IMG/VR virus record: IMGVR_UViG_3300030450_001373
Coordinates: 1 to 34,996 of that record
Reading direction: 5' to 3' (one strand)
Source: a virus
Length of the DNA: 34,996 bases
The translations under genes and the position numbers were made by a program. The notes under the pieces were generated by a model, which was given only the letters and a program-made list of their open reading frames with translations, ran no database searches and was not told the DNA's origin. Position 1 is the first letter of the stretch, and every line of letters starts with the position of its first letter. Positions 11,758-34,996 of the stretch are shown here, in pieces.

Positions 11758-12354
11758 ATGTCCTATATAGGTACACAACCAAATAATGTAAAAAAGAATA
11801 TTGGTATATATACACCAAATGATATTACTGCTTTAACCAAAGATGGTCATTGGGGTGGCTCAATAGAACATATTGAAACTGAAACTTTTAGTGGCGTTTC
11901 GACTGTTGACTTTGATGATTTAGGAAATTATGAAACACATCTTTTTGTTATGAATAATATTCATTTAGATGACAACAGAGACCAAAACCTTTATGCAAAA
12001 ACAGGTGGCTCAACAGATACAGGCAGTCATTATGCGAGAGCTTTTGTAGTTGGTGGAAGTGCAGATACCGAAGATAGAGATAATTCTTTAAACAGATTTA
12101 GATTATGGGCTCAAACAGGTAATGCAACAGGAGAAGCATTTTGTGGCTATTTATATATGTATAACGCTTTAGATAGTGCCAAATATACTTTATTTAACCA
12201 ATTCGGTAGTCAAACAATTTATAATGGCGTTCAAGAAATCAGTTTTGGTGGTGGTGCATATAAACAAAATAACACACTATCTGGAATACAGTTTTGGCCT
12301 AGTTCATCAACAATGGCAGGAAGTATTGAGCTGTATGGATTGAAAGAAGTTTAA
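11758..12354 (+). CDS. Fibre-array protein 1 (A type, with anchor motif)
   Basis: 198 residues. The N-terminus Y-I-G-T-Q-P-N-N-V-K-K-N-I-G-I-Y-T-P-N-D-I is an anchor motif that recurs in the fourth gene (G-I-F-T-P-N-D-I). It is followed by a beta-rich body with A-L-D-S-A-K-Y-T-L-F at about 140 and an end G-S-I-E-L-Y-G-L-K shared by the whole array. Tail-fibre or receptor-binding role is inferred from position between the tail tip and lysis genes and from similar marine phage proteins ending in Y-G-I/L-K. It contains no GATC, unlike most of the genome. Confidence 0.75.
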   Translation: MSYIGTQPNNVKKNIGIYTPNDITALTKDGHWGGSIEHIETETFSGVSTVDFDDLGNYETHLFVMNNIHLDDNRDQNLYAKTGGSTDTGSHYARAFVVGGSADTEDRDNSLNRFRLWAQTGNATGEAFCGYLYMYNALDSAKYTLFNQFGSQTIYNGVQEISFGGGAYKQNNTLSGIQFWPSSSTMAGSIELYGLKEV

Positions 12355-12355
12355 T

Positions 12356-12868
12356 ATGAGTAACCTAAGATTAATTAATGAAACTACTGCTAGTTCAAGT
12401 GCAAGTGTTTCAGTTGAAGATGTTTTCACAACTGATTTTAATGTTTATAAAATAGTTACTAATCAAAGAGGAATTTCTAGCGATACTTCAATAGAGGGTA
12501 GGTTTATAGATTCAAGTGGAACTATTGTTAGTTCTAGCAATTATGATTATGCAAGAATTATGATCAAAGCTTGGACAGGTTTTGGGGAAGATAGGAATAC
12601 AGGTCAAACTCGTTTTAGAAGTTTTGGCGAGGCATCTGCTGAAGGTGCATCATCAGTATCTTATGTTTTTAATCCAATGAATGAAACCGACTATACATAT
12701 TTTGTTAATTCTAATTCAGCAGTACAAAGTGGCGACAATAATTTTAATATGCAAGGAATTGCAGTTCTCAAACTTCAAGGTGCAATGTCAGGCATTAATT
12801 TCTTCCCTGATAATGGAAATGCTTTTACTTCTTTTAGTTGTAGAGTTTATGGATTGAGGGTGGACTAA
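12356..12868 (+). CDS. Fibre-array protein 2 (B type)
   Basis: 170 residues. It lacks the T-P-N-D-I anchor and begins L-R-L-I-N-E-T-T-A-S-S-S-A-S-V-S-V-E-D-V-F-T-T-D-F, equivalent to the region after the anchor in the A type. The middle P-M-N-E-T-D-Y-T-Y-F and end G-I-N-F-F-P-D-N-G-N, then C-R-V-Y-G-L-R match the family. It probably packs with or replaces the A-type subunit in a hetero-oligomeric fibre. One of only three GATC sites of the array is in this gene (12562). Confidence 0.72.
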   Translation: MSNLRLINETTASSSASVSVEDVFTTDFNVYKIVTNQRGISSDTSIEGRFIDSSGTIVSSSNYDYARIMIKAWTGFGEDRNTGQTRFRSFGEASAEGASSVSYVFNPMNETDYTYFVNSNSAVQSGDNNFNMQGIAVLKLQGAMSGINFFPDNGNAFTSFSCRVYGLRVD

Positions 12869-13389
12869 TGGGATTAATGCAAGTAGCAACGCATACAGTA
12901 GAAAGTGGAAGTGAAGTACAAACAGTTAAATTAGAAAGTTGTGTAACAGACAATAGTATGTATTTTCTTAGTGCTAATAATATTTGTGTAGGTGCTGATG
13001 GTGGAAGTCTTGATGTAAAGCCATTAGTTGGTAGCACATCAGATGATACTTCAAACATTAATATTGCTTGGATGGATTTAAAAACTTCTGGTGCTTATCA
13101 AGATTTTGGAAATACAGGACAAGATATGTGGCGAGTAACTGATGGATGTACAACAGCACCAAATAAAATTAACTTTGTTATGAATTTATTTAATTGGTAC
13201 AGCAGTTCGGAATGGGCTCATATCACAATGGAAGTAACTTCAATGACAAGTTCCCAATTAAGAGGTTATCAACAAGCAGGAACTAAAGAGGAAACAACTT
13301 CTTTTAATGGAATACAGTTTTACACTAATCAAACAGGTGGTGGTGGCTTTCAAGCAGGAAGTCAATTCACTTTATATAAGGTGGTGTAA
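12868..13389 (+). CDS. Fibre-array protein 3 (divergent member)
   Basis: 173 residues, the most divergent member. It shares I-T-M-E-V-T-S-M-T-S-S-Q-L-R-G-Y-like central strands and the F-N-G-I-Q-F-Y-T and F-T-L-Y-K-V end, with the last block lacking the canonical Y-G-L. The body has C-V-T-D-N-S-M-Y-F-L and W-M-D-L-K-T-S-G-A-Y-Q-D-F-G. A single-base overlap joins it to the gene before. It is probably a head or tip domain of the fibre complex; this is inferred from synteny. Confidence 0.68.
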   Translation: MGLMQVATHTVESGSEVQTVKLESCVTDNSMYFLSANNICVGADGGSLDVKPLVGSTSDDTSNINIAWMDLKTSGAYQDFGNTGQDMWRVTDGCTTAPNKINFVMNLFNWYSSSEWAHITMEVTSMTSSQLRGYQQAGTKEETTSFNGIQFYTNQTGGGGFQAGSQFTLYKVV

Positions 13390-13391
13390 TT

Positions 13392-14030
13392 ATGAGTGAA
13401 TATGGATATATACCAGAAAGCCCTGCTCAAAGTTTTGGAAATAATAAAGGAATATTTACACCTAATGATATTTATGATCTAACAAGAGATGATAAGTTTA
13501 AAAACTTAGGGCAACTTGAATTGATTGAAACTAAAACAGGAAGTGGTGTAAGTGCAATAGATTTTACAGACATAAAAAGTAGCACTTATGATGTTCATTT
13601 TATGACAGTAACAGGTTTCGTTCCAACACAAGATGGGCAACCTTTTGGTATTAGATTATCTAATGATGGAAGTACTTTTATTTCTAGTGGATATAATTGG
13701 GCAAACTTAACTTATAGAGGTGGTGGAACATTTGCTGACAATAGGTCAACTTCATCTTCATATTTAGAAATTGGTAGGTTATGTGGTAACTCAACTAATG
13801 AAAAACTTAGTGCATATATTTATTTTTATCATCTTGGCGATAGTGCTAAGTACAGTTTTTTAACGCAACAAGCTACTTACTATAATGAATTTGGAGAGCA
13901 AATGGGCTCATTTGGAAGTTGTGCTTATCCAACATTAAGTCAAGTAAATGGAATAAGACTTTGTACTACTTCAAATAATATAACTGTTACTGCTGTAACT
14001 CTTTATGGGATTAAGATGTATAAATCATGA
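13392..14030 (+). CDS. Fibre-array protein 4 (A type, with anchor motif)
   Basis: 212 residues. G-I-F-T-P-N-D-I-Y-D-L-T-R-D-D corresponds to the anchor of fibre protein 1, followed by L-E-L-I-E-T-K-T-G-S-G-V-S-A-I-D-F, which matches its I-E-T-E-T-F-S-G-V-S-T-V-D-F. The D-S-A-K-Y-S-F block (about 155) and the final T-L-Y-G-I-K are present. This second A-type gene begins what looks like a repeat of the A-B-type block, so the array may have grown by block duplication. A ribosome site is weak; spacing is 2 nt from the upstream stop. Confidence 0.74.
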   Translation: MSEYGYIPESPAQSFGNNKGIFTPNDIYDLTRDDKFKNLGQLELIETKTGSGVSAIDFTDIKSSTYDVHFMTVTGFVPTQDGQPFGIRLSNDGSTFISSGYNWANLTYRGGGTFADNRSTSSSYLEIGRLCGNSTNEKLSAYIYFYHLGDSAKYSFLTQQATYYNEFGEQMGSFGSCAYPTLSQVNGIRLCTTSNNITVTAVTLYGIKMYKS

Positions 14031-14557
14031 GTACTAATTTACAATTTATAACACAAGTTAGTGCAGAAAGTGTTGTGTATTTAAACACAGGACAAATCTT
14101 TACTGCTGAATATGATAGTTATTTTGTTCAAATGGAAATTGCAGGAAGTTCAACTTATAACGAAATTTATTTAACAGATAGCAGTAATGCAAGATTAAAT
14201 GATAGTTCAGATGACGCACACTACGACAATGCTATGAGGGTTTTAAAATCAGACACAAGTGCAGCTTCAAATAATGGAGAAAATGCTTATGTAGGTTGGA
14301 GAGAGATTGGTGTATATATAAATAATCAGAATAAAGGTTATGGAATGAGCTTTTATGTTCACAATCCTTTTGATAGTTCTAAATATACATTTATAATTTC
14401 TCAATCAGTTGGATATGTTGGTACTGCTATGTGGGCAGGTAAAGCTATTGGCTCATATAAAAGTGCAGAGCAATGTAATGGATTATATTTATCTAATAGT
14501 GGTGGTGGAACAATGGATTATATTAAAGCAAATATTTATGGGATAGTGAAAGTATGA
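14027..14557 (+). CDS. Fibre-array protein 5 (B type)
   Basis: 176 residues. L-Q-F-I-T-Q-V-S-A-E-S-V-V-Y-L-N-T-G-Q-I-F opens like fibre protein 2, followed by the P-F-D-S-S-K-Y-T-F-I-I-S block and the end A-N-I-Y-G-I-V-K. No T-P-N-D-I anchor. ATGA overlap with the preceding gene implies coupled translation and fixed stoichiometry. No GATC occurs in it. Confidence 0.72.
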   Translation: MSTNLQFITQVSAESVVYLNTGQIFTAEYDSYFVQMEIAGSSTYNEIYLTDSSNARLNDSSDDAHYDNAMRVLKSDTSAASNNGENAYVGWREIGVYINNQNKGYGMSFYVHNPFDSSKYTFIISQSVGYVGTAMWAGKAIGSYKSAEQCNGLYLSNSGGGTMDYIKANIYGIVKV

Positions 14558-15084
14558 GTGGAGATTTAGTTTTAATAGATAGTGTTACTTTAACAGGTGC
14601 CGTTGCAAGTGTTGATTTGGGTGGTGCAGATTGGGATGACAGTTATGATGTGTACCAAGTTGTTTGCAGTGATATAGAATTTGATACAGACACAAGAGCA
14701 ATAAGTTTTAGACATATAGATACTTCAAATAATCCAATTACAGTTTCAAGTTATGATGTATCTTTTGAAGTTTTAAAAGCTAATACAGGATTTGAAAATG
14801 CTTATGGAAGTTCAACACACGCATATGTAACTGATTTATATATAGGCAATGGAACAGGAGAATGTGCAAACACTGTTATATGGTTATTTAATTCAAATAT
14901 TGCAGGAGATTATACTTTTCATACAGTAGAAAGTGTTTACTTATCTAATGATCCATATACAAAAGGTCAGCAAGGTGGTGGTGTTTTGAAACAGACTTCC
15001 GCAACAAAAGGTATTCATATCTTCTGTACTGCTAGTGGAAATTTTGACGCAGGCGAATTTAGACTGTACGGACTTAGAAAATAA
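14554..15084 (+). CDS. Fibre-array protein 6 (B type)
   Basis: 176 residues. L-V-L-I-D-S-V-T-L-T-G-A-V-A-S-V-D-L-G opens the same module; G-D-Y-T-F-H-T-V-E-S matches the S-x-Y-T-F block, and the end E-F-R-L-Y-G-L-R-K is the most canonical of all six. It overlaps the previous stop as ATGA and is the last array gene. Immediately after its stop comes the second TGCTAAGAT promoter. It carries one GATC (14949). Confidence 0.74.
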   Translation: MSGDLVLIDSVTLTGAVASVDLGGADWDDSYDVYQVVCSDIEFDTDTRAISFRHIDTSNNPITVSSYDVSFEVLKANTGFENAYGSSTHAYVTDLYIGNGTGECANTVIWLFNSNIAGDYTFHTVESVYLSNDPYTKGQQGGGVLKQTSATKGIHIFCTASGNFDAGEFRLYGLRK

Positions 15085-15112: not shown

Positions 15113-15433
15113 ATGGCTATAAAAACTATTGCACAATTTAGAACTGAAGCTACTTCTGAAATAGAAAGTGAAAAACCTTTATATGCACAAGTAAAAAATG
15201 AGAGAAGAGAGTTTACTAAGGCAGAATATGACCTAGCTATTGAAGATAGAGCACAGTATAAATTAGACCAACAAGATAATGGATATGTTAGAGATAGACA
15301 AGAAAGTTATCCTGCTTTAGGCGAACAACTTGATCTGTTGTATCACGATATGACAGCAGGTAAAGGCGATAAAACAGGCGAATGGTACAAAGCTGTTAAA
15401 AAAGTTAAAGATGACAATCCGAAACCAAGCTAA
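15113..15433 (+). CDS. Small tail-region protein with Y-P-x-L-G-E-Q-L-D motif
   Basis: 106 residues. The motif R-Q-E-S-Y-P-A-L-G-E-Q-L-D-L-L-Y-H-D matches a widespread phage family (usually Y-P-S-I-G-D-Q-L-D-x-L) encoded after tail fibres, sometimes called a tail fibre assembly or host-specificity accessory protein; the function is not settled. The rest is charged and helical. A perfect ribosome site (AAAGGAG) precedes the ATG. Its stop overlaps the next ATG. Confidence 0.75.
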   Translation: MAIKTIAQFRTEATSEIESEKPLYAQVKNERREFTKAEYDLAIEDRAQYKLDQQDNGYVRDRQESYPALGEQLDLLYHDMTAGKGDKTGEWYKAVKKVKDDNPKPS

Positions 15434-16017
15434 TGAAACTTGATGTAGTAAGAACACAATTCGGAATAGATGCAACCAATGGAATGCTTTTTATTGATGG
15501 AGTGTTTGAATGTTATACATTAGAAGATGAAGTTAGAGATGTAAAAGTTCATTCAGAAACTGCGATTCCTTTAGGGGAATATGAGATCAAGTTAAGAACA
15601 GAAGGCGGATTCCATAGTAAATACACTAAGCGATATGGATCAATGCATAAGGGTATGCTTTGGCTACAAGATGTTCCTAACTTTCAATGGATCTTAGTGC
15701 ATACGGGCAATCAAGATTCTCACACTGCTGGTTGTTTGCTTTTGGGAGAAACTCAACAAGATCTGGATAAAGGAAAAGATGGTTTTATTGGTGGATCTGG
15801 AGATGCTTATAAAAAGGCTTACCCAAAGATCGCTGATGCAATTCTTTCTGGAGATAAAGTAACTATTAGATATTCAGATATAGATCTAGGATCTAAAGAG
15901 TTATCAAATAAATCAAGTGATGATGTTATGCTAACAAGCATGGTAGATGCGAAAATGGATAAAATGCTTAAGGAAATTAAGAATATAAAATCTATTATTA
16001 GCAAGAAAATCGTTTAA
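15433..16017 (+). CDS. DUF5675-family protein, putative cell-wall enzyme of the lysis region
   Basis: 194 residues. Residues 1-150 match the DUF5675 pattern: R-T-Q-F-G-I-D-A-T-N-G-M-L-F-I-D-G, Y-T-L-E-D, I-P-L-G-E-Y-E-I-K-L-R and the H-T-G-N-Q-D-S-H-T-A-G-C-L-L-L-G block with His90, His97 and Cys101. That arrangement recalls the catalytic H-x-C motif of YkuD-like L,D-transpeptidases, so action on peptidoglycan cross-links is plausible but unproven. Residues 155-194 are a charged helical tail. Proximity to holin-like genes fits a lysis role. No signal peptide. Confidence 0.75.
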   Translation: MKLDVVRTQFGIDATNGMLFIDGVFECYTLEDEVRDVKVHSETAIPLGEYEIKLRTEGGFHSKYTKRYGSMHKGMLWLQDVPNFQWILVHTGNQDSHTAGCLLLGETQQDLDKGKDGFIGGSGDAYKKAYPKIADAILSGDKVTIRYSDIDLGSKELSNKSSDDVMLTSMVDAKMDKMLKEIKNIKSIISKKIV

Positions 16018-16212: not shown

Positions 16213-16425
16213 ATGGCAAATGCAAAAGCATATTGGAAGTTCATGCTGTCAAAAGCATTTAGAACAGGATTGCAAAGTGCGATTTCATTATGGTTGGCTA
16301 ATTCAAGTGGGATAATTGATGCAGATGTTTTTCAATTAGTAGGAGTAGCTTTTTTAACAAGTTTTATAACTGTTATTCAACACGCTTTAGAACAATATAA
16401 GCCAAAAGCCACATACGAAGATTAA
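16213..16425 (+). CDS. Holin, phage r1t type
   Basis: 70 residues with two membrane segments (about 15-29 and 38-57) joined by a short turn, S-S-G-I-I-D-A-D-V-F. The pattern F-R-T-G-L-Q-S-A-I-S-L-W-L-A then D-V-F-Q-L-V-G-V-A-F-L-T-S-F matches r1t-type holins, common in actinophages and lactococcal phages. It would form the inner-membrane lesion that releases endolysin. A ribosome site (AGGAG) precedes it and its stop leads into the next ATG with no gap. Confidence 0.85.
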   Translation: MANAKAYWKFMLSKAFRTGLQSAISLWLANSSGIIDADVFQLVGVAFLTSFITVIQHALEQYKPKATYED

Positions 16426-16647
16426 ATGAATATAAAATTAGATGCGAAAGCCATTGGAGGTGTGATCTCTGCATTAGTGATCTCATTGATCTCATGGCTA
16501 TTTAGATCAGTACAACAATTAACCAATGAAGTAGCAGTATTAAAAGCTGAATTAACTTATGGGAATGATAGATTGGCCGAAGTCTTGACAATAATCAATG
16601 GTCTTTCTGGGGAGATAACAGAAATAATCTGGAAAATCGGCGGTTAG
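16426..16647 (+). CDS. Small membrane protein with coiled coil, possible holin partner
   Basis: 73 residues: one membrane segment at about 10-26 (I-G-G-V-I-S-A-L-V-I-S-L-I-S-W-L-F), then a helical region with heptads (V-A-V-L-K-A-E-L). It follows the r1t-type holin with zero gap, so it may be a holin regulator (antiholin-like) or accessory lysis protein. I do not recognise a family. Confidence 0.72.
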   Translation: MNIKLDAKAIGGVISALVISLISWLFRSVQQLTNEVAVLKAELTYGNDRLAEVLTIINGLSGEITEIIWKIGG

Positions 16648-16655
16648 ATCTTGAA

Positions 16656-18722
16656 ATGTTGTACCGATTCAACAAAATTGTCCGAATATTAATAGTATTA
16701 TTTTTAATAATTCCACCAATATCAGTTCAAGCCGAAGAAACAACAGTAACAGAGAATTTCAATGAGGGGGAAATCAATGAAGATATTACTTTCGTTTATG
16801 GTGGTAGTGATACTGCTGTTGTTGCCGAAACTGATTGTTCTACTGCTCAAATACCCGGATCAATCAATATTGAGGATATGGATTGTCATGGATCAGAATA
16901 TTTTGGATCAGATCGTTACCAATTGGGATTACGCAGTTCAACAGATTCATTTACTATTGCATTCCCTAATTCAGAAACTAAACCAATTACTGAAGTTGGA
17001 TTTCTAACTTTAGCTGTTGATGATGCTAATACAGGAACTGTTTATTATGATGATTCAACTTCTGCAACCTTTAATATAGTTGCAAATGCTAGTGGTAATT
17101 CGCAAGTAACTTTAATTGCACCTAGTGGAACTACGATCAATGAAATTGTGATAGCAGGTGCATCAGATAATCTACAAGATTGGTGGTTGTTTGATAATGT
17201 ATATTATAAATATAATGCTGTTCCTGTAACTACAACCACAACATCTAGTACCACTACTACGACAACTACTACATCTAGTACTACAACAACAACGACTACA
17301 ACTTTACCACCAGAGCCAGAAGAAGAATATATACCACCAGAAACAACAACTACAACTATTCCTGTTGTGATCGTTGAGATAGGTGGAGAAGAAGTAGAAT
17401 ACACACAAACAGAAGTAATTGATGGAACAGTTGAAAGAGATCAAGAAAGATTAGATAATTTAGAAGAATATGGGTGCGAATTAACAAATGCACAAATAGA
17501 AAGAGGAGATTGTGATGTTGAGATCTATGAAGAAGATCTATATGAAGAAGAATTTGATGAAGAAGAACAGGGAGTTCTTGATGACAGCATTATCATATTT
17601 GAAATTCCAGATGAAGATGAGCTTGAAGAATTGGAATTTGAGGATCTTAATGAAGAAGAAATTGAAGATCTGGAAAAACAAATGGAGATTGATGCTAAGG
17701 AAATTGAAATCCTTAATGAAGAAATTGAGTTTATTGAAGAATTATCAGAGGAAGAATTAGAAGAGTTTGTTGAAGTAGTCTTAGAAATTGAAGAATACAT
17801 AGATGATCTTGAAGATTTTGAGGAAATAGAAATTATAATTGAAGAGGAAATAGATTTAATAGATATATTTATAGCTAACGATTTATTCCCACCAGATCCA
17901 GAAGATATAGAAAAAGATTTAGAAAAGATACAAGAGGAGATCATAGAAGATGAAGTTGAAATTGAAGAAATATTTGTTGAAGATGAAGTTGAGATTTATG
18001 AAGATGAAGAACAAGTTGAAGAAACTATATTTGAAATATTTGATATTTTTGATTCGCAAGGATCTATTGAAGAGGAATTATCTGAGGAGATAATAGAAGA
18101 AGAAGTTGCAGAATTAGAAGAAGTTATTGAAGAGATCATTGAAATTCCTATTGTTGAGGAAGATCTATCAGAAGAAGAAGTTAAAGAAGTAATACAAGAA
18201 TATGTTGAGGATCTGGAAACCGAAGAAGTAATAGAAGTCTTAGAAGAAGTTAATGACATTGGAGTTCAAAATCTATCCGAAACCACAGAGGAAACACAGG
18301 AGATCATACAGGAAGTAGTAGAAGAGGCTATTGAAGAAATAGATGAATTAACAGAAGAACAAGTTGAAGTAGTTGCAGAAGTTTTACAAATAGAAACAGA
18401 AGATGTTGAGATTATCGCTGATGCTATAAAATCTGATGAAGTAGTTGCTGAGGCAGTTGAAGAGTATGTTGAAAGAGCTGTTGAAAATAAAGATGTAGAA
18501 AATTACACTCTCGCTGATGTTGTTACAGAAGTACAATACGAAGAATTTTTAGAGAATCCAATAGAAGTGTTTGTTGATTTTGATAATTTAAATGAGATCA
18601 CAATTTCAAATGTAGGAGATGACATGACATCAGATCAGCGTGAAAAAGCTCAAGAAGTTGTAGTGCCTGTTATTTTGACTAGAATAGCATCTATGGCTGC
18701 TTTTATGTTTAGGAGAGGTTAG
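16656..18722 (+). CDS. Large secreted, hyper-acidic surface protein with Thr-rich linker
   Basis: 688 residues. A signal peptide (1-27, R-I-L-I-V-L-F-L-I-I-P-P then V-Q-A-E-E) is followed by a beta-rich domain (about 28-188) ending D-W-W-L-F-D-N-V-Y-Y-K-Y, which resembles jelly-roll or carbohydrate-binding folds. Residues about 189-240 form a T/S linker, and about 270-640 are extremely rich in Glu/Ile/Val, probably long coiled helices. The C-terminus V-P-V-I-L-T-R-I-A-S-M-A-A-F-M-F-R-R-G looks like an anchor. Such architecture is seen in actinobacterial surface proteins. In a phage it may coat the infected cell, block superinfection or act in lysis; I cannot choose. It lies inside the holin region. 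Confidence 0.8.
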   Translation: MLYRFNKIVRILIVLFLIIPPISVQAEETTVTENFNEGEINEDITFVYGGSDTAVVAETDCSTAQIPGSINIEDMDCHGSEYFGSDRYQLGLRSSTDSFTIAFPNSETKPITEVGFLTLAVDDANTGTVYYDDSTSATFNIVANASGNSQVTLIAPSGTTINEIVIAGASDNLQDWWLFDNVYYKYNAVPVTTTTTSSTTTTTTTTSSTTTTTTTTLPPEPEEEYIPPETTTTTIPVVIVEIGGEEVEYTQTEVIDGTVERDQERLDNLEEYGCELTNAQIERGDCDVEIYEEDLYEEEFDEEEQGVLDDSIIIFEIPDEDELEELEFEDLNEEEIEDLEKQMEIDAKEIEILNEEIEFIEELSEEELEEFVEVVLEIEEYIDDLEDFEEIEIIIEEEIDLIDIFIANDLFPPDPEDIEKDLEKIQEEIIEDEVEIEEIFVEDEVEIYEDEEQVEETIFEIFDIFDSQGSIEEELSEEIIEEEVAELEEVIEEIIEIPIVEEDLSEEEVKEVIQEYVEDLETEEVIEVLEEVNDIGVQNLSETTEETQEIIQEVVEEAIEEIDELTEEQVEVVAEVLQIETEDVEIIADAIKSDEVVAEAVEEYVERAVENKDVENYTLADVVTEVQYEEFLENPIEVFVDFDNLNEITISNVGDDMTSDQREKAQEVVVPVILTRIASMAAFMFRRG
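17229..17303 (+). repeat. ACN-type Thr linker repeat with 30-bp period
   Basis: Codons ACA/ACT/ACC/ACG repeat through this segment, and the 11 bases ACATCTAGTAC occur at 17241-17251 and again at 17271-17281, exactly 30 bp apart. It encodes the T/S linker of the secreted protein. Slippage or unequal exchange here would change linker length between variants. Confidence 0.85.
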
Positions 18723-18904
18723 TGCTAAAAAAATTATGGAATTGGCTTTTGAGAGCCATTAAAGAAACTTTGAATTTGAGCTGGACTCTGGTTGGTCTAG
18801 TTATTGCTACTTTAACTCTTACAGGATCAGCTCAACAGGTTACAGGTCTTGCGACTTTAATTACATTAGGTATATGGCTACTTACCATAGGATTTAGAGA
18901 TTAA
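18722..18904 (+). CDS. Small two-segment membrane protein, holin-like
   Basis: 60 residues from GTG 18722, which overlaps the stop of the secreted-protein gene. Two hydrophobic segments (about 20-35, W-T-L-V-G-L-V-I-A-T-L-T-L-T; and 42-56, G-L-A-T-L-I-T-L-G-I-W-L-L-T) follow a basic, amphipathic N-terminus. This is a plausible second holin or a holin antagonist. No family recognised. Confidence 0.7.
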   Translation: MLKKLWNWLLRAIKETLNLSWTLVGLVIATLTLTGSAQQVTGLATLITLGIWLLTIGFRD

Positions 18905-18996
18905 TGGCTTCTGATTGTTGTTACACAAAAAAAATAAATGGAACATGGATTACCATTTGCAATAATAAATATGGATATTATGGCCATGTCAGATAA
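18904..18996 (+). CDS. 30-residue Cys-containing micropeptide
   Basis: ATG 18904 shares the final base of the preceding stop and reads M-A-S-D-C-C-Y-T-K-K-I-N-G-T-W, with a third Cys later and a Tyr/Gly-rich end. The D-C-C start recalls the 13-residue peptide at 5503. Its last 11 bases overlap the next gene's start in another frame, so coupling is expected. Function unknown. Confidence 0.55.
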   Translation: MASDCCYTKKINGTWITICNNKYGYYGHVR

Positions 18997-19171
18997 TGGA
19001 TATACACAGAAAGAAATGTTGGCTTTACTTCTGGAAGGCCAAAAGGATCTAAACAAAAGATTTGATCTATTACATGAGAAAGTAAATCAGAAGATCAGTA
19101 GATCTGAATTATTGGCTTGGACAACAGTTTTAGCAGTCTTAATTGCTGGATTAAGTCAATATATGCCTTAA
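18986..19171 (+). CDS. C-terminally anchored coiled-coil membrane protein, XhlA / holin-like
   Basis: 61 residues from ATG 18986 (M-S-D-N-G-Y-T-Q-K-E-M-L-A-L-L). An earlier in-frame ATG at 18938 would run inside the micropeptide gene without a ribosome site. A helix with coiled-coil heptads (K-D-L-N-K-R-F-D-L-L-H-E-K-V) is followed by a single membrane segment at 42-57. This layout occurs in second holin-like proteins of actinophages and in XhlA-type lysis proteins. It closes the lysis region. Confidence 0.72.
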   Translation: MSDNGYTQKEMLALLLEGQKDLNKRFDLLHEKVNQKISRSELLAWTTVLAVLIAGLSQYMP

Positions 19172-21108: not shown

Positions 21109-21297
21109 ATGGCGAAAGAAATAGTAGCTATTGAAAATACAGGAGGGTTGGCTAAGTTAGTCATTAAAGAGGGGGATTCCTTTTCTTCAATGTCTATGCC
21201 TAATGGTATATTACATATAGAGCCAATTGAAGTTGATGATGATAGGAATACTTTTAGCCCTGCAACTGACTTGTTATCCAGTAGATCAAGAGCTTAA
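21109..21297 (+). CDS. Small protein of unknown function overlapping the transglycosylase gene
   Basis: 62 residues: M-A-K-E-I-V-A-I-E-N-T-G-G-L-A-K-L-V-I-K then mixed polar. Beta-rich start, C-terminus Ser/Arg-rich. The last 62 bases overlap the next gene in another frame. It has no ribosome site but a good promoter at leaderless distance, which supports it being translated. No family is recognised. Confidence 0.65.
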   Translation: MAKEIVAIENTGGLAKLVIKEGDSFSSMSMPNGILHIEPIEVDDDRNTFSPATDLLSSRSRA

Positions 21298-32335: not shown

Positions 32336-33943
32336 TTGGCTGAAAGAAGAAGTTTTAGAGAAATTATTGAGGGTAGAGTAAGATTTACAGATCGTACAAA
32401 TGAAAAAAGATCAACAGGATATAATTTCTTTAGAGATGATGTTAATGAAAATATTTCATTCATACAGGGGTATAACACAACAGCAGGTAATTGGAACATA
32501 GATGGTCTTGGAGATGGTCAATCCAATTCAGCAGTTGTTGCCTGTTTAGGAGTTTTAGGAGTTTCGTTTAGTGAGGCTACATTACAGGTATGTGTAAAAG
32601 ATACTGATGGAGAAAAAGAATTAGTACCTAACCACCCATTCAGTTATTTAATGAGAAGGCCTAATCCTTATATGTCTGGAGATGTAATTCAAAATTATAT
32701 TATTAATGCTATGCATGTATCTGGAGATGCTTATTTATTAAAACAGTTCAATGAAGTAGGTCAATTAGTTTCGCTTTATCCTCTAATGCCAGATCAGATA
32801 ACACCTAAAGGATCTTCAGAAGAATTGATAACTCATTATATTTATGAAACACAAGAAGATAAATTTAGATTAGAGATCAATGATATTGTGCATTTTAGAT
32901 TGGGATTAGATCCAACAAATCATAAACAGGGATTCAGCCCACTGAAGTCTGTATTAAGAGAAATATATGGAGATGAGAGTGCAGGTCAAATGGCTACTGC
33001 TTTATTATCTAATATGGGAGTTCCTAGTGTAATGATCACACCGAAAGATGAATATGGCCCATCTAAAGAAGAGGCAGAACAAATAGCAAAAACATACCAA
33101 CAGAAAGTAAGTGGAAAGAATAAAGGAAAGCCATTGGTATTATCTGGGCAAATGAATGTTGAGAAATTATCTTTTAGCCCAAAGGATTTAGATATAGGAT
33201 TATTAAGACAAGTACCAGAGGAAAGGATCTCTGCTGTTCTAGGTGTTCCTGCTATTCTTGCTGGTCTTGGAGCAGGATTAAAGAATGCAACTTATTCAAA
33301 TGCAAAAGAGTTGAGAGAATTTTTTACTGAAAATAAATTAATTCCATTATGGAGAATGGTTGGAGAAGAATTAACTCAACAGGTCTTATTAAAAGATTAT
33401 GAAGAAGATAATGATAGTTATTATGCTGAATATGATTTTTCAGAAGTAAGAGCTTTACAATCTGATCAGAATGAATTGTTTGAAAGATTGAATACAGGAG
33501 TTGCTGGGGGTTGGATCACAGTAGCAGAGGCTAGAGAAAAAGTAGGATTACCTGTAAATGATAGCCAAGAAGTTTATCTATTAAGCCAATCAGTAGTTCC
33601 AACACCTGCTGATTTAGTTGTTCCAGAGGTATCAGAAACAAGAGATCCAGAAGTAGAAGATACTCCAGAAGTAATAATTGAAGATGATGTTCAGTATTCA
33701 AGTAAAGTAATAAGAAAAATAGAGGATCAGTTCTGCGTTATAGCTGAAGAGTCTGGGAGAAACATGGGCTGTTATGCAACAAGAGAATTAGCTGAAAGAA
33801 GATTAAGGCAAATGGAGAGCTATTCTGATGATCCTAAAAAATCTAAAAAAAAAAATAAAAGAATAGAACATACTTATTCTTTTACAGAAGATGGATCAAG
33901 AGTTCATAACTCATGGCTAGAGAAAGAAGAAGAAGAAGAATGA
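32336..33943 (+). CDS. Portal protein, HK97 type, with C-terminal motif extension
   Basis: 535 residues starting TTG 32336, with AAAAAGGAAAG 3-8 nt before it and no better start. The portal domain spans about 40-440: N-S-A-V-V-A-C-L-G-V, N-H-P-F-S-Y-L-M-R-R-P-N-P, S-G-D-A-Y-L-L, V-H-F-R-L-G-L-D-P and E-R-I-S-A-V-L-G-V-P-A-I-L-A-G. Beyond it (about 470-505) is F-C-V-I-A-E-E-S-G-R-N-M-G-C-Y-A-T, then R-R-L-R-Q-M, a short module found at ends of several phage virion and protease proteins. The end is K-rich then Glu-rich. ATGA overlap leads into MuF. Confidence 0.93.
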   Translation: MAERRSFREIIEGRVRFTDRTNEKRSTGYNFFRDDVNENISFIQGYNTTAGNWNIDGLGDGQSNSAVVACLGVLGVSFSEATLQVCVKDTDGEKELVPNHPFSYLMRRPNPYMSGDVIQNYIINAMHVSGDAYLLKQFNEVGQLVSLYPLMPDQITPKGSSEELITHYIYETQEDKFRLEINDIVHFRLGLDPTNHKQGFSPLKSVLREIYGDESAGQMATALLSNMGVPSVMITPKDEYGPSKEEAEQIAKTYQQKVSGKNKGKPLVLSGQMNVEKLSFSPKDLDIGLLRQVPEERISAVLGVPAILAGLGAGLKNATYSNAKELREFFTENKLIPLWRMVGEELTQQVLLKDYEEDNDSYYAEYDFSEVRALQSDQNELFERLNTGVAGGWITVAEAREKVGLPVNDSQEVYLLSQSVVPTPADLVVPEVSETRDPEVEDTPEVIIEDDVQYSSKVIRKIEDQFCVIAEESGRNMGCYATRELAERRLRQMESYSDDPKKSKKKNKRIEHTYSFTEDGSRVHNSWLEKEEEEE

Positions 33944-34944
33944 AATCATCTAGTGCAGAAGAGTTGATCAGTAGAAGAAACCAATTAAGAGAATTGGAAT
34001 GGGAGAAAAGGATCAATCGTTTTGAATCTAAACAAGCAAGAGATGATATATGGAATGCCTTTAATGATCTTCTGGGTAATTGGGATTACACATTAGCTAG
34101 GTTATATAATTATTTATTAACAAAACAAGTTAGATCAATAAATAAGATCATGAATGAAAATCCTCCAACAATATCTGGGATCTTAGCTATAACCAATTCA
34201 ACAATAGATAGAGAATCCAGAGTTGATTGGAGAAAAGAAGTTGAGCCATTTTATATGAGTATGATGGAAGATTTTGCTTATCTTCAAGTTGAAATATTAT
34301 TACCAGATGAATTAAAGGAGAATTATGTTTATTCACAAGAAGAACAAAATCAAATAGAAAGAAATAGAAGAAGAAAGCCAAGAAATGAGATCATAGAGAG
34401 TGGATTCCACCCACGAAGAAAAAGAGGTCAAGCTCTACCGATTAATACAAATAAATACAATAGATCTGCTAATGCTTATATGAAAGGAAGATTAGATCAA
34501 GTTTTACCAGATATGAGTAAAACAATGAAAAATAATTTAAACAGGGCTTTAAGGAAATCAATAGATGAGGCTAATGCTTTAGGTTTAACAGGAAGAAAAT
34601 TAGATAAATATTTAAGTGATGGGATCTCTAAAAGTTTAGGAAAGAAGAATCTGGGGAGAGCTATGAATATAGCTAGAACAGAGGGAACAGCTTTAGCTAA
34701 TTGGGGAATGAATGAAAGTGCAAAACAAACAGGATTGATATTAGAAAAAGAATGGATCACTCGTAGAGATGGAATAGTAAGGGAGGCTCATATCTATATG
34801 GATGGAGTTAGAGTAAACCAAAATGATGATTTCAATGTAAGAGGTTATTTAATGAATTATCCCGCAGATAGTAGCAAAGGAGCGCCTGCTGGACTAATAT
34901 GTAATTGTAGATGCGCAATGGTAATGCATGAAAAGAGGATATGA
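33940..34944 (+). CDS. Head morphogenesis protein, MuF / SPP1 gp7 family (complete copy)
   Basis: 334 residues from ATG 33940, which overlaps the portal stop as ATGA; an in-frame ATG at 33913 lies inside the portal gene. The N-terminal part (residues 1-170) is helical with I-N-R-F-E-S-K-Q-A-R-D-D-I-W; the conserved MuF region with A-R-T-E-G, E-K-E-W-I-T-R-R-D-G, R-E-A-H and the final I-C-N-C-R-C lies in the last 150 residues. Minor capsid protein associated with the portal; some MuF proteins carry C-terminal toxin domains but none is seen here. The 3' part differs from the left-end copy by about 8 %. Confidence 0.92.
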   Translation: MKSSSAEELISRRNQLRELEWEKRINRFESKQARDDIWNAFNDLLGNWDYTLARLYNYLLTKQVRSINKIMNENPPTISGILAITNSTIDRESRVDWRKEVEPFYMSMMEDFAYLQVEILLPDELKENYVYSQEEQNQIERNRRRKPRNEIIESGFHPRRKRGQALPINTNKYNRSANAYMKGRLDQVLPDMSKTMKNNLNRALRKSIDEANALGLTGRKLDKYLSDGISKSLGKKNLGRAMNIARTEGTALANWGMNESAKQTGLILEKEWITRRDGIVREAHIYMDGVRVNQNDDFNVRGYLMNYPADSSKGAPAGLICNCRCAMVMHEKRI

Positions 34945-34996
34945 AATTGAATAGAGATTACAAAGAAGTAAAATTTTTAACAACTGATGAATCAGA
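34481..34996. repeat. Right copy of the imperfect terminal direct repeat
   Basis: Corresponds to 1-516 with about 42 substitutions and no indels; the final 80 bases are identical to 437-516. The pattern shows that the genome is circular or circularly permuted, and that the two ends of the window came from close variants. Confidence 0.95.
34941..34996 (+). CDS. Prohead protease, 5' fragment (continues at the left end)
   Basis: ATG 34941 with the first 18 codons of the protease, identical to 461-516. The gene is cut by the end of the window and is complete at 461-1249, so this is the closure of the loop and not a second gene. Confidence 0.9.
   Translation, partial: MKLNRDYKEVKFLTTDES

Follow-up and report, generated by a model that had tools for sequence, protein, structure and literature searches.

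The window, the whole analysed stretch of 34,996 nucleotides of viral DNA, carries at 16656-18722 an ATG-initiated open reading frame for a 688-residue hyper-acidic protein (net charge -185) that is predicted to be secreted, C-terminally anchored and exposed at the cell surface; this gene and all features described with it lie on the plus strand. As the initial annotation had it, the frame is present and its 2067 nt occupy about 6% of a ~34.5 kb unit genome. Aspartate and glutamate account for a fraction of 0.30 of the residues, and the net charge per residue is -0.27; the other window proteins checked have far lower D+E fractions of 0.11-0.17. The protein begins with a predicted Sec signal peptide without a lipobox cysteine (residues 1-26, 16656-16733), namely MLYRFNKIVRILIVLFLIIPPISVQA cut ahead of EE, and an equivalent is found in all 85 distinct complete homologues, 76 by pattern and 9 by eye, a count that depends on a looser pattern and on reading by eye since stricter patterns gave 18/85 and 27/85. 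The signal peptide noted earlier is thus a family trait. It is followed by a beta-sandwich head (residues 27-190, 16734-17225) and by a T/S-rich linker (17226-17360) that includes the 30-bp repeat previously reported, at 17228-17302 (2.5 copies, 77% match).

The remainder had been described as about 370 residues of Glu-rich helices, which is correct as to acidity, but two parts have to be separated. The first is a low-complexity acidic stalk (17361-18197; residues ~236-540 hold 134 D/E vs 8 K/R) whose composition is kept while its sequence drifts, with a median dN/dS of 0.29. The second is an all-helical C-terminal domain (residues ~515-688, 18198-18719), conserved at 75% mean column identity in an alignment of 41 sequences and under strong purifying selection (median dN/dS 0.11), for which the AF2 model reaches a pLDDT of only 63. 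This C-domain ends in a 27-residue hydrophobic helix (18630-18710) followed by RRG, a predicted stop-transfer anchor. The anchor-like C-terminus of the initial annotation is supported by a KD 19-residue mean of 1.75 in the window protein, by means above 1.6 in 94% of 174 distinct C-termini, and by at least two K/R among the last six residues in every one of the 174. The simplest reading of this topology, predicted from sequence, is a type I anchored surface protein.

The C-terminal part matches at least 593 IMG/VR stretches and the N-terminal part finds 35 loci. No family in Pfam or PHROG describes the protein when the full sequence, the head or the C-domain is scanned; matches to Phasin_2, DUF2252 and New_glue were rejected as low-scoring, compositional and under the cut-offs. 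Searches of INPHARED phages by tblastn with the whole protein and the C-domain gave none, although low-complexity filtering may hide the acidic portion, and profiles of the head and the C-domain found nothing convincing among PDB sequences. A phage protein of this type was not found in the literature searched. The gene and the partner gene described below are thus undescribed in these libraries and publications, and phage-encoded exported exclusion proteins are already a known kind.

The lectin-like beta domain that had been proposed is borne out by an AF2 model of residues 27-190, a beta-sandwich with pLDDT 87 and pTM 0.86, whose best PDB fold matches are largely carbohydrate-binding modules: CBM61, CBM29 and CBM22 (VIA Z 10-11), aligned over 126-137 residues. 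The fold is common to these modules and the head; the head differs in sharing only 8-14% sequence identity with them and in matching no CBM family in a Pfam scan, and viral folds are also among its structure matches. As modelled, it thus resembles a CBM-type fold, with sugar binding putative. Two head families of 66 and 19 members are distinguished by sequence, and relatives carry other CBM-like variants or an unrelated domain that is fibronectin-III-like by eye. The largest homologue, of 899 aa (L185:5269-7965), has a head region of ~458 residues, apparently of several tandem beta domains. Heads are freely exchanged on constant C-termini: in 46 pairs of homologues the C-domains are at least 90% identical and the heads less than 40% identical (e.g. 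99% and 25% in L062/L064), and conversely L055 and L088 have near-identical heads (98%) on diverged C-domains (78%). The net charge of the homologues ranges from -101 to -209.

Immediately downstream lies a gene for a 60-residue membrane protein (18722-18904), missed in the initial annotation; its start codon shares 1 nt with the stop codon of the acidic gene (TAGTG). The product has two hydrophobic stretches with basic ends, is predicted to form an N-in/C-in hairpin, and matched no holin family in profile scans. This 60-mer is found downstream of the acidic gene in 102/102 loci with readable downstream sequence, two divergent loci included, with the start/stop overlap in 92 of the 100 loci parsed. 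A reverse search with the 60-mer found an acidic C-terminus upstream in 79/80 loci, the lone exception beginning at a contig edge, and among 43 records obtained by way of other genes 24 have both genes, 19 neither and none one alone. The two are therefore an obligate gene pair. Divergent C-termini are accompanied by divergent 60-mers (L008, L025, L124), and C-domain and 60-mer distances are correlated over 169 loci (r 0.71, or 0.69 after removal of the DUF5675 signal described below; C-domain vs DUF5675, r 0.34). Head distances do not track those of the 60-mer (r 0.03). The 60-mer is the most constrained part of the pair (median dN/dS 0.08), and it may be in physical contact with the C-domain.

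The placement in a lysis region given by the initial annotation is confirmed by the neighbouring genes. In window order these are a DUF5675 gene (15433-16017; PF18925, E 2e-25), an r1t-type holin gene (16213-16425; PF16945, just over cut-off), cl8, coding for a small one-TM coiled-coil protein at the left border of the cassette slot (16426-16647), the pair, and cl7, coding for a small protein with a C-terminal TM that is XhlA-like by eye, at the right border (18938-19171); an SLT domain is found at 21227. The DUF5675 alignment has an invariant H-x-GN ... T-x-GC pattern, HTGN...T.GC in the window, that is reminiscent of YkuD/L,D-transpeptidase enzymes and suggests this protein as the endolysin.

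The pair is absent from several related phages that keep the lysis genes. L339, which is related to the window through its TerL (66%), has DUF5675, holin, cl8, cl7 and exonuclease arranged as in the window, cl8 and cl7 being just 25 bp apart; L338, of a ~40-kb lineage, keeps DUF5675 and the holin; and L354, L377 and L405 likewise keep lysis genes. A protein essential to lysis is expected wherever the lysis genes are, and in these five the pair is lacking. It occurs in 14 of 15 DUF5675-anchored loci flanked by 3.5 kb or more on each side. The pair is thus common yet accessory, and lysis does not require it. A 160-173-aa coiled-coil protein with an N-terminal TM lies in or near the slot in L354 (3743-4264), L377 (7818-8339) and L405 (5801-6283); strict mutual exclusion between this protein and the pair was considered and is mostly true, but L071 carries both.

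The pair is also spread over three phage backbones. Of 36 pair-bearing records, 34 show no match to the TerL of the window, and in the ~40-kb lineage the major head protein belongs to a PHROG other than that of the window. The third backbone is a 29.7-kb phage contig (C11) in the probable Actinomarinales genome G038, with 35.45% GC and a 215-aa WhiB-like gene; its endolysin is an amidase, unlike the DUF5675 protein of the window, so that the pair also sits beside a different endolysin. This contig fits a phage described in the single-cell genome AG-919-G14 (PMC7771536), 29 kb long with 35.5% GC and a WhiB of double length, and is likely the same record. The r1t holins of this phage and of the window are 83% identical, by which the window phage most likely infects Actinomarinales; its GC content of 32.6% fits such a host. 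WhiB as a host marker was absent from the 36 pair-bearing virus records. The C-terminal half of the WhiB-like gene on the contig (L413:7964-8611) matches endonuclease VII profiles, and a WhiB fusion that is ADP-ribosyltransferase-like was reported in a similar phage in 2020 (PMC7771536). Several tandem paralogues on this contig are placed like six in the window (11758-15084, 170-212 aa) that have a similar C-terminal ending and are likely tail-fibre heads; homology of the acidic-protein heads to the six was considered and rejected (hhalign probability 0.1%).

The likely host order was sampled as the order of the Actinomycetota MAG RS345, taken as Actinomarinales from WhiB and genome size (42 genomes, 0.6-1.1 Mb, all WhiB-positive). 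The initial annotation proposed a search of actinobacterial genomes for the architecture and C-terminal motif and allowed for a host-derived protein; the C-domain has no match in 40 of the 42, in the other two (G001, G038) it is on phage-like contigs, and profiles of C-domain and head find no chromosomal homologue in any, which speaks against a host origin. Only six MAG loci matched in a search of genome contigs, and those read (L114, L112) are phage. The pair-bearing contigs L112, L113 and L117 are in MAGs labelled Gammaproteobacteria and Flavobacteriaceae and look like mis-binned phage.

Accessory status, export, a tether with a matched partner and exchanged heads together indicate that the protein is displayed at the surface of the infected cell. 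The reading favoured here, at a probability of roughly 0.4, is that of a tethered surface lectin that serves superinfection exclusion or prevents readsorption. In this scheme phages of marine Actinomarinales would carry the two genes as an accessory cassette within their lysis region. The acidic protein would be exported by Sec and its signal peptide then removed, and its C-terminal helix would remain as a type I anchor in the host membrane, next to the 60-residue hairpin to which it is matched. The exchangeable CBM-like head, carried by the helical C-domain and its long polyanionic stalk, could then reach through the wall to the surface, where it would most likely bind host envelope glycans while the polyanionic coat masks or repels. 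Infected cells, and later their debris, would as a result stop adsorbing progeny or competing phages. The one conserved flexible island of the host order is devoted to sugar decoration of the envelope (PMC7771536). The proposal of the initial annotation, that the protein is of cell-surface type and belongs neither to the virion nor to the core lysis proteins, is favoured by the signal peptide, the stop-transfer-like C-terminus, the dispensability for lysis and the CBM-like heads, with the membrane topology predicted and the glycan binding and exclusion putative.

Exclusion or anti-readsorption is considered the most likely use of such display because the comparable portable Cor and Llp cassettes act in this way in coliphages. 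These occur in T1, T5, HK022 and N15 (PMC9586334, PMC13164509), as portable, non-essential loci for an exported protein and membrane proteins, downstream of tail-fibre genes in unrelated phages (PMC13164509, PMC9586334), and are thought also to keep progeny off debris (PMC9586334, PMC13164509). The pair is likewise a portable accessory cassette of an exported protein and a membrane-protein gene in unrelated phages. However, Cor and Llp are small lipoproteins that act early on outer-membrane transporters, whereas the window protein has 688 residues and is a non-lipoprotein, the lipobox cysteine of Cor and Llp being absent at its VQA-EE cut site; nor do they have its lectin-like head and anchor, its lysis-region site or its probably monoderm host. 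The main doubts about the exclusion reading are the lysis-gene neighbourhood and the lack of a link between heads and tail genes. Receptor-matched exclusion would predict some match of heads to adjacent tail genes; this was looked for and discarded, as head and upstream-gene similarity show no correlation by a crude measure (partial r 0.02, p 0.24, 41 loci). The cassette is also late by position, vs the early Cor and Llp. As to glycan binding, many proteins have CBM-like folds, and likeness of fold is no proof that sugar is bound.

The same neighbourhood lends weight to an accessory or timing device of lysis, which is the foremost alternative though a doubtful one: the exported acidic protein would work from outside on the 60-mer, a holin-like hairpin, as a regulator or a wall disruptor. 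The head might then sense outside conditions, or the polyanionic stalk sequester wall cations. In the backbones seen, the pair adjoins genes for an r1t holin, an endolysin-type protein and small TM proteins, the strongly constrained 60-mer co-varies with the C-domain, and the antiholin RI of T4 is similarly a protein with a cleavable signal peptide that is paired with, and binds, a phage membrane protein, the holin T (PMC8385771). The likeness to RI and T has its limit in that a holin role of the 60-mer is only putative. RI is also much smaller than the 688-residue protein and is not known to have a lectin head or an acidic stalk. Against such a device stand the occurrence, in both main lineages, of lysis genes with no pair, the holin that the phages already own, and the absence of any obvious need on the part of a regulator for heads of such variety and a polyanionic stalk of 300 residues.

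Surface display for adhesion or conversion rather than exclusion is unlikely, though the anatomy would suit it. The protein could glue infected cells to cells, particles or progeny virions, or alter buoyancy or grazing, and so aid spread; adhesin-like anatomy, swappable CBM-like heads and the high negative charge throughout the family are in keeping with this. LPXTG-type adhesins of Gram-positive bacteria also have a signal peptide (here predicted in every complete homologue, as in sortase-anchored proteins), a binding head, a T/S linker, a long stalk and a hydrophobic, basic-tailed C-terminus. The window family differs from them in having no LPxTG-like motif in any of 174 distinct C-termini, in its dedicated 60-residue membrane partner and in being phage-borne. 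Nothing specific speaks against adhesion, but with the genes in a late lysis cassette it would have little time to take effect.

A virion fibre or decoration that merely starts with a hydrophobic segment is very improbable: the gene lies downstream of tail genes and tail proteins often have beta-sandwich heads, but the signal peptide in every complete homologue, the basic-tailed anchor in every C-terminus and the obligate pairing with a membrane protein are against it. Least probable of all is a host surface protein acquired by the phage, for although the T/S-rich linkers and acidic stalks resemble actinobacterial surface proteins by eye, the 42 host-order genomes hold no chromosomal homologue of either profile and the genome-contig matches read are phage-like, some of them in mis-binned MAGs.

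The favoured tethered surface lectin allows a broader proposal, offered tentatively, of a new kind of surface-display machine in which a constant membrane base, made up of the helical C-domain and its co-evolving hairpin, bears interchangeable lectin-type heads on a polyanionic stalk. Such a machine, carried on a cassette that unrelated phages of an abundant ocean bacterium have in common, would control what adsorbs to infected cells. To our knowledge almost no phage biology is known for this abundant marine actinobacterial host, and the pair points to phage action on its surface. A gene pair that is very common in ocean phages and has gone unannotated thereby becomes a testable unit, and its co-evolving C-domain and 60-mer offer a direct structural prediction. 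If the pair excludes phages, superinfection exclusion would extend to tethered lectins and to marine bacteria that are probably monoderm; a role in lysis control would instead make it a new type of regulator, one that faces outward.

The ends of the window are themselves related. Positions 1-516 and 34481-34996 align over 516 bp with ~92% identity, an imperfect terminal redundancy that looks as if a circular genome had been assembled from two close strains, and an open reading frame of this end repeat is present as a whole copy at 33913-34944 and a cut copy at 33-464.
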